Positions 6,129 to 12,017 of a stretch of DNA of 44,050 nt are shown here, piece after piece. The translations under genes were made by a program, and so were the position numbers. The DNA comes from Candidatus Rokuibacteriota bacterium (GTDB taxonomy: Bacteria; Methylomirabilota; Methylomirabilia; Rokubacteriales; CSP1-6): contig QHSP01000059.1 in the NCBI GenBank assembly GCA_003220495.1, positions 1 through 44,050 of the forward strand, in the 5' to 3' direction. Positions within the stretch are counted from its first letter, which is position 1. Every line of letters begins with the position of its first letter. The notes below the pieces were generated by a model. It had not been told where the DNA came from and ran no database searches. It saw nothing but the letters and a program-made list of their open reading frames with translations.

Positions 6129-8489
6129 ATGGGCGCAAAATTTTTCGGCGCGGCGGTGAAGCGGCGGGAGGATCCACGATTCCTCCGGGGTGAAGGGCGT
6201 TTCATCGACGACGTGACCTTGCCGGGCCTGCTCCACGCGGCGTTTCTCCGCTCGCCCCACGCTCACGCGCGCATCGCGCGCGTCGACACCACGGCGGCCG
6301 CCGCGGCGCCGGGCGTGGTGCGCGTGCTCACGTTCGCGGACCTCGAGCGCTGGATGAAGCCGCTGCCGCTCTTCGGCGCCGTGCCGCCCGGTCTGGCGGC
6401 CGTCGTCACGTTCGACATGCGCCAGACGCCGCAGTGGGCGCTCTGCCGCGATCGTGCGCGCTATGTCGGCGAGATCGTGGCGATGGTCGTGGCCGATTGC
6501 CCGGAGCGCGCCGAGGACGCGGTCGACCTGATCCGGGTCGACTGGGAGCTGCTGACGCCTGTCGTCGACATGACGCGCGCCGCGGAGCCCGGCGCGCCGC
6601 TCCTCCACCCGGAGTGGGGGAGCAACATCGGGGTCGGCTTCACGCATTCGATCGGCGACGCCGACCGCGCGTTCGCGCAGGCCGACGTCACCGTCACGGA
6701 GACCTTCCACATCCAGCGCTACGTGGGCATGCCGCTCGAGAACCGCGGCGTGGTTGCAACCTGGGACCGGCGGGACGGGACGATGACGACCTGGAACTCG
6801 ACCCAGGTCTCGCACTTCGTCCAGCAAGGGCTGACCGGCGCGCTCGGGCTGCCGCCCCACAAGATTCGCGTGATCGCCCCCGATCTCGGCGGCGGCTTCG
6901 GGACGAAAGCGTCGGGGTACGCGGAAGACGCGCTGGTCCCGATCGCCGCGATGGCGCTCGGCCGGCCCGTGAAATGGATCGAGAGCCGGCGCGAGCACAT
7001 GTCCGGCGCCGCGCACGCGCGCCATCAGGTCCACGCGATCTCGCTCGCGGCCGCGCGCGACGGCGCGATCCTCGGCGTGCGCGACCGCATCTGGCTCGAC
7101 CTCGGCGCCTACAACGTCTGGGGCGTCGTGCTCCCGTACAACACGGTCGCGCACCTGATCGGACCACATCGGATCAAGCACATGCGGGTCGACGTGCAGG
7201 CGGTCGTCACGAACAAAACGCCGAACGCGCCGTACCGCGGCGCCGGCCGGCCCGAGACCGTGTTCGCGATGGATCGGATCGTGGATTGCCTGGCGCGCGA
7301 GCTCCGGATGGACCCGGCCGAGCTTCGGCGCCGTAACTATATCCGCCCGGACGAGCTCCCGTACGATTTCGGCATGCCCTATCGCGACGGCAACCCACTC
7401 GTCTACGACACGGGTGATTTCCCCGAGGCGCTCGAGCAGGCGCTCGAGGCCGCGGACTACCAGAAGTTCCGGGCAGATCAGCCGCGCCTGCGGGCGCAGG
7501 GGATCCATCGCGGCATCGGCATCTCGGGGTACGTCGAGGGCACGGCCATCGGCCCCTTCGAGGGCGCCACGGTGAAGCTCGACCTGGCCGGCCGCGTGCT
7601 CGTGGCGACGGGCGCGATCAGCTCGGGCCAGGGGCACGAGACGAGCTTTGCCCAGATCGCCGCCGACGCCCTCGGCGTGCCGATGGACTGGATCACCGTC
7701 ATCGGCGGGGACACCGCCGCGGTGCCCTTCGGCGTCGGCACCTTCGCGAGCCGCAGTGCGGTGACGGCGGGGAGCTCGATCGCCGACGCCTGCCGCGAGG
7801 TCCGGACGAAGCTGACGCGCGCTGCCGCGGTGTTGCTCGAGGCCGCGCCGGATGACATCGAGATCGACGACGGCCGGGTGTTCGTCAGGGGCTCGCCGGG
7901 CTCCGCGGTCGATCTCGCGCGGGTCGTCCAGGCGTCGATCCCGACTTTCGCGAAGCCCGGCGTGGCGTCACCCGATTTCGAGGCGAGTGCCTATCACCAC
8001 GTGCCGACCGTGACCTATGCGAGCGCCGTTCACGTCGCCCAGGTCGAGGTCGACGCCTCGACAGGCGGCGTCAAGCTGCTCCGATACGTCGTGGCCCACG
8101 ACTGCGGGCGGGTCATCAATCCCGTGATCGTCGAGGGGCAGGTGCACGGCGGCGTCGCGCAGGGCGTCGGCGGCGCCCTCTTCGAGGAGATGGTCTACGA
8201 CGAGACCGGCCAGCTCCTGACCGGATCGCTGATGGACTACGCGGTGCCCAAAGCGGACGATCTGCCGCCGATCGAGACGGTGCACCTGGAGTTCCCGTCA
8301 CCGCGCAACCCCCTGGGCGTCAAGGGGCTCGGCGAGGGCGGCGCGATCTCGCCGCCGGCGGCGATCGCCAACGCGGTCGAGGACGCGCTCGCCCCTTTCG
8401 GCGTGCGCGTCACCGAGACGCCGCTGACGGCGGCGCGCATCGTGGCGCTGCTCGAGCGAGCCGCGGGGAGCCCGCGCCGCACAGGGTGA
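6129..8489 (+). CDS. Xanthine dehydrogenase/CoxL-family molybdopterin-binding subunit
   Basis: A 786-residue large subunit of the molybdenum hydroxylase family, full length. The N-terminus (VKRREDPRFLRGEGRFIDD) is the usual opening of the aldehyde oxidase/CoxL a/b hammerhead domain. The active-site loop is PYRGAGR (residues 368-374). This is the pattern of 'form II' or generic hydroxylases, not the CSFR-type loop of true aerobic CO dehydrogenase. The catalytic base is Glu736 in GLGEGGA. The molybdopterin cytosine dinucleotide region GQGHETSFAQI is present. The FAD and 2Fe-2S subunits that normally form the enzyme are not adjacent. The next two genes are a hydrolase and an LLM oxidoreductase. 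It probably hydroxylates an aldehyde or N-heterocycle; substrate unknown. Confidence 0.9.
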   Translation: MGAKFFGAAVKRREDPRFLRGEGRFIDDVTLPGLLHAAFLRSPHAHARIARVDTTAAAAAPGVVRVLTFADLERWMKPLPLFGAVPPGLAAVVTFDMRQTPQWALCRDRARYVGEIVAMVVADCPERAEDAVDLIRVDWELLTPVVDMTRAAEPGAPLLHPEWGSNIGVGFTHSIGDADRAFAQADVTVTETFHIQRYVGMPLENRGVVATWDRRDGTMTTWNSTQVSHFVQQGLTGALGLPPHKIRVIAPDLGGGFGTKASGYAEDALVPIAAMALGRPVKWIESRREHMSGAAHARHQVHAISLAAARDGAILGVRDRIWLDLGAYNVWGVVLPYNTVAHLIGPHRIKHMRVDVQAVVTNKTPNAPYRGAGRPETVFAMDRIVDCLARELRMDPAELRRRNYIRPDELPYDFGMPYRDGNPLVYDTGDFPEALEQALEAADYQKFRADQPRLRAQGIHRGIGISGYVEGTAIGPFEGATVKLDLAGRVLVATGAISSGQGHETSFAQIAADALGVPMDWITVIGGDTAAVPFGVGTFASRSAVTAGSSIADACREVRTKLTRAAAVLLEAAPDDIEIDDGRVFVRGSPGSAVDLARVVQASIPTFAKPGVASPDFEASAYHHVPTVTYASAVHVAQVEVDASTGGVKLLRYVVAHDCGRVINPVIVEGQVHGGVAQGVGGALFEEMVYDETGQLLTGSLMDYAVPKADDLPPIETVHLEFPSPRNPLGVKGLGEGGAISPPAAIANAVEDALAPFGVRVTETPLTAARIVALLERAAGSPRRTG

Positions 8490-9336: not shown

Positions 9337-10482
9337 GTGAGCATGCGGGCCTGGTTCTTCAGCGAGAACGCGTATCACCTGCTGCCCGATTCGAAGGAGT
9401 ACGACTCGATCCGGGTGAAGCTGCCCAACCGCTACTACGATCCCAAGATCGGCGCCGATCTCTATCACCGCTTCATCGACGAGTGGAAGATCGCCGAGGA
9501 CCTCGGCCTCGAGATCATGGTGAACGAGCACCACCAGACGGCGACGAACCTGAATCCCTCGGCGGCGGTCGTCATGGGCGCGCTCGCGCGCGACACGCGC
9601 AAGGCTCGTCTCCTGATCCTCGGCAACCCCATCGCCAACCGGCGCGAGCCAGTGCGGGTGGCCGAAGAGATGGCGATGGTCGACGTCTACTCGCGCGGCC
9701 GGCTCGAGTGCGGGTTCGTCCGCGGCGTGCCGTACGAGATGTCGGCGGGCAATCATCGGCCCACGCGGATGATGGACCGCTTCTGGGAGGCTCACGACCT
9801 GATCGTCAAGGCGTGGACCAGCCACGACGGCCCCTTCAACTGGGAAGGCAAGTACTTCCATCACCGCCAGGTGAACATCTGGCCGCGCCCGTACCAGGAG
9901 CCGCATCCGCCGATCTGGATCACCGCGCTCAGCCCGTCGAGCGCGCGCGCCGTCGGCGAGCGGGGCTACATCGTGGCCTGCTTCCTGACGGGCTTCGAGG
10001 GCACGAAGAACGTGTTCGACTCGTATCGCGAGCGGCGCGCCGAGCTCAAGCTCTCGACGCCGGCGCTCGACCGCTTCGCCTATGCGGCGCTCGTTTACGT
10101 GGGCGAGACCGACGAGGAAGGGTACGCGGGCGCGCGCAAGCTGATGTGGTATCTGGAATCCAACAAGGTGCCGCCACAGTTCACGAGCCCGCCGGGCTAT
10201 CACCCGACGGCCTCCGCGGTGAACACGATGAAGGGGACGAACCCTGGCATCTTCAAGATGTTCCAGAATCCGGCGCTCGGGCCGCTCATGGAGCACGGCC
10301 TCGTCTTCGCCGGCAACCCGGACTCGGTCTACCGGCAGATCCTGAAGATGTACGACCACGTCGGTGGCTTCGGGCATCTGCTCATCATGGGTCAGGCTGG
10401 CTTCCTCGACCATGACGAGACCGTCAAGGGCATGCAGATGTTCGTTCGCGAAGTCTACCCGCGGCTCAAAGCTCTCGCGTAA
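9337..10482 (+). CDS. LLM-class (luciferase-like) flavin-dependent oxidoreductase
   Basis: A 381-residue bacterial-luciferase-like TIM barrel protein. Family landmarks include EIMVNEHHQTATNLNPSAAV near residue 60, GRLECGFVRGVPYEM, and PRPYQEPHPPIWITALSP, which lines the flavin site. Such enzymes use reduced FMN or F420. The start is either GTG 9337 or ATG 9343, two codons later; neither has a clear Shine-Dalgarno sequence, so coupling to the hydrolase stop is likely. It is followed directly by the palindrome at 10483. The substrate is not predictable. Confidence 0.88.
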   Translation: MSMRAWFFSENAYHLLPDSKEYDSIRVKLPNRYYDPKIGADLYHRFIDEWKIAEDLGLEIMVNEHHQTATNLNPSAAVVMGALARDTRKARLLILGNPIANRREPVRVAEEMAMVDVYSRGRLECGFVRGVPYEMSAGNHRPTRMMDRFWEAHDLIVKAWTSHDGPFNWEGKYFHHRQVNIWPRPYQEPHPPIWITALSPSSARAVGERGYIVACFLTGFEGTKNVFDSYRERRAELKLSTPALDRFAYAALVYVGETDEEGYAGARKLMWYLESNKVPPQFTSPPGYHPTASAVNTMKGTNPGIFKMFQNPALGPLMEHGLVFAGNPDSVYRQILKMYDHVGGFGHLLIMGQAGFLDHDETVKGMQMFVREVYPRLKALA

Positions 10483-10648
10483 GCGCCCGGGCCTGGCGGC
10501 GGGGTGCCGGGAGGGTTTGCCGGACCACGCGGCGGGCGTTCGCTGCCCCTCGGCGGCTGGGCTGCATCCGGGCGCGCGACGTCCGCCGCCGCTCTCAGGC
10601 AACGGGTCCGGCAACCCCTCCCGGCACCCCGCCGCCAGGCCCGGGCGC
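10483..10648. repeat. 166-bp near-perfect palindrome (two 42-nt arms, 82-nt loop)
   Basis: The left arm, 10483-10524, begins directly after the LLM stop codon. The right arm, 10607-10648, is its reverse complement over 42 bases with one mismatch (at 10516). The arms are almost pure G and C and enclose 82 nt with no open frame of interest. No target-site duplication is visible at the outer ends. The structure lies between convergent genes. It may be a bidirectional transcription block or a non-autonomous palindromic element. The remaining DNA to the next gene (10649-10757) shows nothing recognisable. Confidence 0.85.
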
Positions 10649-10757
10649 CCTCGGCGATTGAGCCTCCGCTCTCCTGGGGAACGACTCTCTTACACGCTTG
10701 GCGCGCGAGCCTCGTCATGGACGAAGGAGACTCTTTGCTTAGTGGTGGCGGAGGCGT

Positions 10758-12017
10758 CTACTTGGCGAAGGTGTTTTTGAGGGTGATGAGGCGGGGTTTC
10801 TTGAGGTAGTCGGCGGGGTCGAGGCCGAGGAACTGGTCGACGTTTCGGATGGTCTCGATCACCACGGGAACGATCTGGTCGCCGACCTTGTCGATCCGGC
10901 TGATGTGGATGTCGGTGACCACGTTCTGGTAGCGGTCGAAGCGTACGCGGCCCTGCGGCGCCTCGACGTCCATCTTGCGCAGCGCCTCGACGAAGCGCGC
11001 CGAGTCTTCGATGTTGCCGCCCGTCGCGCCGACGGCCTGGTCGATCGCGGCCATCGCGGCGTAAGTGAACGCGGCGGGCGAGCCCGGGTCGCGGCCAAAC
11101 TTCGACCGGAAGGCCTGGACGAACTTCCGGTTGCGCGGCGTCTCGATCGTGTACTGGTAGGGCTGGCTGTTGTAGACGCCCACGGCCGCCTCGCCCGCGG
11201 CGGGCAGGAGCGAGATCTCGCTCACGCCCACCGAGGCGTCGACGACCGGAATCTTCCCCTTCATGCCGTACTCCTGGAACTGCTTCACGAAGCGCACGCC
11301 GTCGGCGCCGACCGTCTGCACGCCGATGACGTCCACGTCCTGGCGCAGCTTCGCGACCCAGGGCGCCATGTCCGCGGTGCCCAGCGGCGGATAGATCTCC
11401 TGAACGATCTTGCCGCCGGATTCCTCGAAGGCGCGTGCCCACGCCATCACGAGCTCGAGCGGGCCCACGCTGTCCGAGGCGATGATCGCCGCCTTGCGCG
11501 CTTTCAGATGTCGATAGGTCCACTGGCCGATGGGCGCGCCGGTCATGGCCGCGCTGTAGGTCAGCCGGAACACGTAGGGGTTCGGCTGGAGCGTGAGATT
11601 CTCGGCGACCGCGAAGCCGGAGATCAGGAGCGGGACCTTCTGCGCGCTCACGTAGTCCTTCACCGCCAGCGCGGCCGCGGAGAGCACGAGGCCGACGATC
11701 GCCTGAGCCCGGTCGCGCTCGACCAGCTTGCGGATCTTCGTCAGCGCCACGTCGGGCCGGGTCTGGTAGTCCTCCACGACCATCTCGAGCTTGCGCCGGC
11801 CGAGCTGCCCGCCGACCTCGTCGGAGTAAAGACGCGCGCCGTCGATGATGTCGCGGGCGTAGGTCGCGAACGGTCCGGTCGAGGGCGCCAGCACGCCGAT
11901 CGTGATCGGCCCGGTGGACGCCGTCGCTTGCGCGAACGCGTTTCGGGGCGGGCCGAGAACCGCGAGGATTAGCCACGCGACACCGAGCGCGATCCGGTGG
12001 TCAGAGCGGCGGTTCAT
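10758..12017 (-). CDS. ABC transporter substrate-binding protein (type I, LivK-like)
   Basis: A 419-residue periplasmic binding protein with a signal peptide of about 29 residues ending AFA. The mature opening, ITIGVLAPSTGPFATYARDI, and GLVLSAAALAVKDY later on match branched-chain-type binding proteins. No permease or ATPase genes are next to it. It is coupled instead to an LLM oxidoreductase gene by a four-base ATGA overlap at its start. It may feed the importer at 1099-5587 or one elsewhere. It differs clearly from the binding protein at 4415, so it is not a recent duplicate. Confidence 0.9.
   Translation of the reverse strand: MNRRSDHRIALGVAWLILAVLGPPRNAFAQATASTGPITIGVLAPSTGPFATYARDIIDGARLYSDEVGGQLGRRKLEMVVEDYQTRPDVALTKIRKLVERDRAQAIVGLVLSAAALAVKDYVSAQKVPLLISGFAVAENLTLQPNPYVFRLTYSAAMTGAPIGQWTYRHLKARKAAIIASDSVGPLELVMAWARAFEESGGKIVQEIYPPLGTADMAPWVAKLRQDVDVIGVQTVGADGVRFVKQFQEYGMKGKIPVVDASVGVSEISLLPAAGEAAVGVYNSQPYQYTIETPRNRKFVQAFRSKFGRDPGSPAAFTYAAMAAIDQAVGATGGNIEDSARFVEALRKMDVEAPQGRVRFDRYQNVVTDIHISRIDKVGDQIVPVVIETIRNVDQFLGLDPADYLKKPRLITLKNTFAK

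Follow-up and report, generated by a model that had tools for sequence, protein, structure and literature searches.

A dispersed palindrome with a conserved directional core, found mostly at gene 3' ends in Rokubacteria

The window, a stretch of 44,050 nt from a Rokubacteria genome of 5.98 Mb in 159 contigs, contains a near-perfect 166-bp palindrome at 10483-10648 between two convergent genes. On its upstream side lies a + strand gene for a luciferase-like monooxygenase (Bac_luciferase, 9337..10482), whose TAA stop codon is followed directly by the first base of the palindrome, while 109 nt separate its other end from a - strand gene for a periplasmic ligand-binding protein (Peripla_BP_6, 10758..12017). 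A preliminary description had reported arms of 42 nt enclosing 82 nt, beginning immediately past a stop codon and placed between convergent genes. Both the start and the convergent placement are borne out, and the arms delimited here (44 nt, 98% complementary, 78 nt between them) represent the same real structure counted slightly differently. The G-rich 5' arm (10483..10526, + strand), defined by the inverted-repeat call and by copy comparison, resembles other copies in its inner part and is specific to its own locus and its orthologs in its outer part; the 3' arm (10605..10648, + strand) is complementary to it with one mismatch in 44. Copy comparison further delimits a conserved core that is directional and 84 nt long (ACC...GGGT; 10524..10607, + strand); it is sense to the upstream gene and extends a few bases into the inner end of each arm. 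A covariance model matches the window copy at 10509-10626 on the + strand. With the distance between arms limited to 250 nt, the runner-up among the window's inverted repeats is 32 nt long at 72%. RNA folding of 186 nt at the palindrome yields -165.3 kcal/mol (z = -12.65), a value equalled by none of 200 dinucleotide shuffles. A known Rfam RNA is rejected, as Rfam 15 returned five hits for positions 10000-11200, all with E of at least 1.4 and under the gathering score, and none for five other element loci.

The palindrome is not unique. The preliminary description had suggested a dispersed palindromic element, a suggestion to be doubted if the genome held no second copy and the locus no transcription boundary; a DNA search of the genome found 18 other places matching the element at E<=1.3e-6 (20 rows, including two for the window copy, one per strand), and the many copies now known lie mostly at gene 3' ends. 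A covariance model built from 15 copies gave 20 matches at E<=1 in the same genome. All nine genomes of the genus, this one included, carry the element, with 11 to 54 matches each at E<=0.1, and 24 of the 57 genomes and nine of the 24 genera in the family do so at E<=0.001, in a patchy distribution with 4 to 64 matches per carrier genome. When 95 genomes of the phylum were searched at E<=1e-4, the element was identified in 23, every one belonging to the same family, and in none of the 38 genomes outside it, in a setting where a model trained on the source genome and stricter filters could miss diverged relatives. An exact-pattern search returned 30 stretches, all named matches being titled Candidatus Rokubacteria or Rokuibacteriota. 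Phage records searched with the window element, plasmid records searched with the consensus core and viral contigs searched with one exact 20-base pattern gave no match, and a phage, plasmid or virus origin is rejected on these searches. On an Ffh tree of 21 genomes, which has few well-supported forks, a single origin of the element requires five changes, and the pattern is compatible with either gain or loss. Searches of open-licence PMC papers, judged by title and the opening of the abstract, turned up no account of such a repeat in Rokubacteria, and the element appears to be undescribed in this large uncultured group.

The anatomy of the element was derived from 147 distinct full-core copies, drawn from 214 hits in fetched loci and sharing the core by construction. 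The core of about 84 nt is directional and contains near-invariant blocks, including ACCACGCGGCACGCGT, GGCTGGGCTCCATCC and GGGAACGGGT. The arm sequences beside it often resemble GGGAGGGGTCG and CGACCCCTCCC, and the outer arms vary among copies and between orthologs, yet pair with each other. The median arm measures 31 nt and the median element 172 nt over full-length copies. G makes up 55% of the 5' arm sequence over 141 arms, and G-quadruplex motifs occur in 56 of 141 arms against a mean of 37 and a maximum of 50 in shuffles, a weak excess. A consensus RNA structure of the core was tried and found weak, with a covariation term of about zero, a hairpin P2 that is often broken and one-sided changes in hairpin P3. 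In P3 (GCGGCUGGGCUCCAUCCGGGCGC), the one-sided changes are mostly of the G:U type on the + strand and double changes are absent, a pattern that hints at an RNA function and falls short of proof.

Placement relative to genes was read with our own gene caller, whose codon log-odds were trained on seven window ORFs and whose starts are approximate. By these calls, 53 of the 147 copies lie between tandem genes in sense orientation (L+R+), 41 between convergent genes (L+R-), 34 between tandem genes in antisense orientation (L-R-) and seven between divergent genes (L-R+); ten lack a neighbour and two fall inside a gene call. A called stop codon is found within -30 to 60 nt of an arm at 109 copies (76 sense only, 17 antisense only and 16 both), and the other 38 have none in this range. 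The distinct gene ends near copies number 124, comprising 91 sense ends at a median of 10 nt and 33 antisense ends at a median of 17 nt, and for the middle half of the sense ends the arm begins 1.5-16.5 nt from the stop codon. Intergenic regions of at least 60 bp that hold an element comprise 34 convergent, 64 tandem and 6 divergent cases, versus 6, 76 and 44 without one, as counted in fetched loci that had mostly been picked for holding elements. This placement past stop codons, the rarity between divergent genes and the great stability of the fold would suit an element that, in either orientation, forms a hairpin at 3' ends or marks a transcription boundary, and such a role is the one we infer from sequence. 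An RNA-stabilising 3' end and a bidirectional terminator, both raised in the preliminary description, are possible candidate roles.

A canonical intrinsic (Rho-independent) terminator is disfavoured. The element shares with such terminators a GC-rich hairpin directly past a stop codon and a position between convergent genes, but differs in its far longer stems, in its 84-nt conserved core in place of a short loop and in the missing T-tract. T-runs after the hairpins (at least 5 T in 8) show no excess in either direction, occurring in 1 of 140 and 2 of 139 cases against 2.75 and 1.75 in shuffles, and none was found at positions 10300-10850 of the window. Any transcription ending brought about by the element would therefore be T-tract-free.

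The core appears to be under constraint at each locus. Its identity is 0.798 between orthologs (254 pairs) and 0.794 between non-orthologs of different genomes in the genus; the value is 0.811 within genomes, and comparisons between genera give 0.792. Across 21 sense ortholog pairs that are disjoint and whose upstream DNA is 89% identical, identity falls from 0.847 in the core to 0.795 in the inner arm and 0.625 in the 60 nt beyond the arm, compared with 0.825, 0.708 and 0.581 in random pairs. The surroundings of the core are, by contrast, near random. Descent, gene conversion or recent spread would contribute besides constraint, since orthologous cores are slightly closer when longer flank matches are required for orthology (0.812 versus 0.796 for others) and non-orthologs within genomes of the genus are more alike than under permuted labels (0.8088 versus 0.7961, with 0 of 300 permutations as high).

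The arms follow a different course. A long perfect hairpin whose arms change in pairs is commonly taken for a selected RNA structure, and the first alternative to be weighed is that the element is a selected RNA hairpin at mRNA 3' ends, in which compensatory mutations preserve the stem because the fold protects or terminates the transcript. The closeness of the arms to stop codons, the preponderance of sense over antisense gene ends, the stability of the fold and the G:U character of the one-sided P3 changes all agree with it. The manner in which the arms change argues otherwise. Across 18 disjoint ortholog pairs in which at least 75% of the pair columns are identical, 584 Watson-Crick pairs are unchanged and 44 paired changes stand against 40 single ones, although misaligned divergent arms can yield false paired changes and ortholog pairs share ancestry. 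Transversions account for 27 of the 44 paired changes and transitions for 17; among those flanked by two identical pairs on each side, the numbers are 11 and 9. Indel columns in the arms are mirrored in 29 cases, versus 8 that affect one arm or do not pair. Other identity thresholds give 77 paired versus 72 single changes (at least 65%, 31 pairs) and, in the six most alike pairs (at least 85%), 7 versus 11, a reversal that weighs against copying between arms. A selected sense-RNA stem should tolerate G:U, whereas neither the core strand nor the L+ copies show a G:U excess, which speaks against RNA selection: the 40 single changes comprise 6 G:T, 19 A:C and 15 others, and the sense strand of the 94 L+ copies carries 33 G:T and 59 A:C mismatches. 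Isolated arm mismatches over 140 copies amount to 47 G:T or T:G, 97 A:C or C:A and 69 others, against 3626 Watson-Crick pairs. The asymmetry, with A:C about twice G:T, tracks the orientation of the core and is alike in L+ and L-R- copies. It equals a G:U excess when read on the strand opposite the core, and RNA selection may act on that strand.

Changes of the core at orthologous loci bear on the same question. A flipped core was observed in 12 of 85 unpaired ortholog comparisons, and in nine of these, at two loci (L212 versus L100, L221, L199, L200 and L002; L054/L143 versus L070/L169), the inverted core occupies an unchanged position between the two flanks. Two further flips (L012-L173 and L056-L127) lie at unequal distances from the stop codon and may represent the partner copy of an inverted pair; one more (L166-L183) matches on one flank only. 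In published work, the marks of template switching between inverted repeats include arm homogenisation and spacer inversion (PMC8604942), and the process has been proposed to maintain hairpins (PMC8794818). Both marks are seen here, homogenisation as mirrored indels and as paired changes about as frequent as single ones, and inversion at two loci, and template switching is what they suggest. Recombination between arms could be an alternative route to core inversion. Taken together, paired transversions, mirrored indels and two in-place core inversions, with no core-strand G:U excess, point to copying of the arms at the DNA level, and the sequences suggest that template switching during replication fits better than RNA compensatory evolution; the selected RNA hairpin is thus regarded as unlikely.

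A second alternative, judged improbable, is a MITE, that is, a non-autonomous transposon with terminal inverted repeats that is spread by a transposase and inserts near stop codons, often TAG. Its patchy distribution, its variable copy number and the within-genome excess in core similarity would agree with this, as would the enrichment at copies of TAG stops (60 of 124 versus 89 of 348) and of CTAG (35 of 124 versus 35 of 348), both counted with orthologs included. However, conservation resides in the core and not at the ends, and terminal inverted repeats constant across copies were not found, the outer arms differing even between orthologs. The sole transposase family searched, Y1_Tnp (PF01797), was found at E<=1e-5 in none of the nine genus genomes and in one of 24 carriers (G052). 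Filled and empty sites also argue against mobility of this kind. Behind the gene that precedes the window copy, counterparts exist in G002, G006, G007 and G008, while G003 retains the gene pair without the element and G001, G004 and G005 have different sequence past the gene. Fourteen other loci of the source genome also served as queries. Among fetched ortholog regions, the core was present in 10 of 11 in G006, 3 of 12 in G003 (one partial), 6 of 9 in G002 and 4 of 8 in G007, and one element of the source genome (L015) is absent from the three counterparts compared (L195, L203 and L210). By eye, some absences retain remnants such as the 5' arm and part of the core (L188), the 3' arm alone (L193 and L224) or a decayed arm pair (L189). 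A clean empty site (L191 versus L204) joins at CCGG and fits either deletion or duplication. The target-site duplication sought since the preliminary description was not established: no filled/empty comparison displays a clear gain with a duplication, none appears in six copies derived from G003 or G006 when set against their counterparts (L179, L178, L137, L143, L142 and L132, the alignments of L178 and L142 being unreadable), and the readable comparisons mostly resemble losses. The third and weakest alternative, in which the element enters pre-existing terminator hairpins at their loop and its arms are host terminators, is very improbable. In its favour, YPAL elements target dyad symmetry (PMC2229807), and of 52 element-free gene ends lying 40-90 nt from the next gene, 10 carry an inverted repeat scoring at least 11, versus 1 when shuffled. 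Against it, longer element-free gaps are at chance (convergent 0 of 14 and tandem 2 of 54, against 0 and 1 in shuffles), the longest listed core-free hairpin scores 20 (L099), under the median arm, and the lost sites that were read retain a single arm, a decayed arm pair or neither.

What lies in these genomes is therefore a repeated element, mostly at gene 3' ends, with a conserved directional core and arms that turn over yet stay complementary. We favour, with a confidence somewhat above even, a dispersed palindrome specific to this Rokubacteria clade, with template-switched arms, a core in sequence-specific use and a 3'-end role. During replication, one hairpin arm would template the other, as in quasipalindrome correction, so that arms would be homogenised, indels mirrored and the core occasionally inverted. 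The core would be retained because a sequence-specific user, whether a protein or an RNA structure, depends on it. At gene ends the element, co-transcribed with the upstream gene, might provide a 3'-end hairpin or a transcription boundary that tolerates either orientation, and copies between divergent genes may be rare because promoters would be disturbed there. A more far-reaching proposal, which is speculative though conceivable, is a clade-wide 3'-end system in which a host factor reads the core at dozens of gene ends and constant template switching maintains the hairpin. If so, arms and at times core orientation would turn over at fixed loci, and the family would offer a natural test bed for the origin of perfect hairpins and compensatory changes. 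If DNA-level copying of the arms is correct, RNA discovery can be misled by covariation, and the process could be measured in this family.

YPAL elements reportedly lie close to stop codons. Judged by size and build, the closest kind of element seems to be this Yersinia palindromic sequence (YPAL/RU-2, about 168 bp), which the present element (166 bp here) resembles in length, palindromic build, intergenic position and multiple copies. An effect of YPAL on upstream RNA has been suggested (PMC2229807). The two differ in that Rokubacteria belong to another phylum, that their arms differ among copies around a conserved core and that YPAL copies are flanked by target duplications of 3-26 bp (PMC2229807), whereas none is established here. 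REPs lie mainly downstream of coding regions and occur as inverted-orientation dimers (PMC3733652), and the present element is likewise found 3' of genes and in facing pairs. REPs are, however, 20-40 bp long with GTAG/CGTC tags (PMC3733652), while the Rokubacteria element, at about 170 bp, has no constant GTAG/CGTC end; a RAYT-mobilised REP is rejected on this length, the lack of a tagged constant end and a Y1 transposase missing from 23 of 24 carriers. Template-switched inverted repeats are similar in that arms are made alike and the spacer is inverted in place, but the published cases concern short inverted repeats in yeast genes and rRNA hairpins (PMC8604942 and PMC8794818), whereas the arms here are mostly 20-60 bp long and belong to a dispersed family of bacterial elements.

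Several smaller observations concern the arrangement of copies and their surroundings. Close pairs of copies, 144-303 nt apart, are in the '+-' order in 12 of 12 cases, with their cores facing each other (L165, L122, L053, L144, L121, L129, L145, L162, L186, L167, L180 and L226). At L047 (G000:C77:6998-7081), on a contig that ends at 7200, a palindrome sets the left core half opposite an inverted copy of itself. This is probably a fused pair: a fold-back duplication was considered and dropped, since in G003 and G006 the same gene is followed by two inverted elements, and a pair of this kind that lost its centre would explain it. Core-free, ordinary perfect hairpins scoring 12-20 lie between genes on both strands at L099:4386, L108:747 and L030:331, with T-tracts absent by eye. 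A different short hairpin, with the stem CGGCGCGCCG or one close to it, occurs past the stop codon of seemingly one gene at L044, L053, L121 and L173. Finally, what look by eye like degenerate tandem repeats of the neighbouring gene's end or start, in units of about 20-40 nt, lie between element and gene, past the element at L082 and before the next gene at L201.
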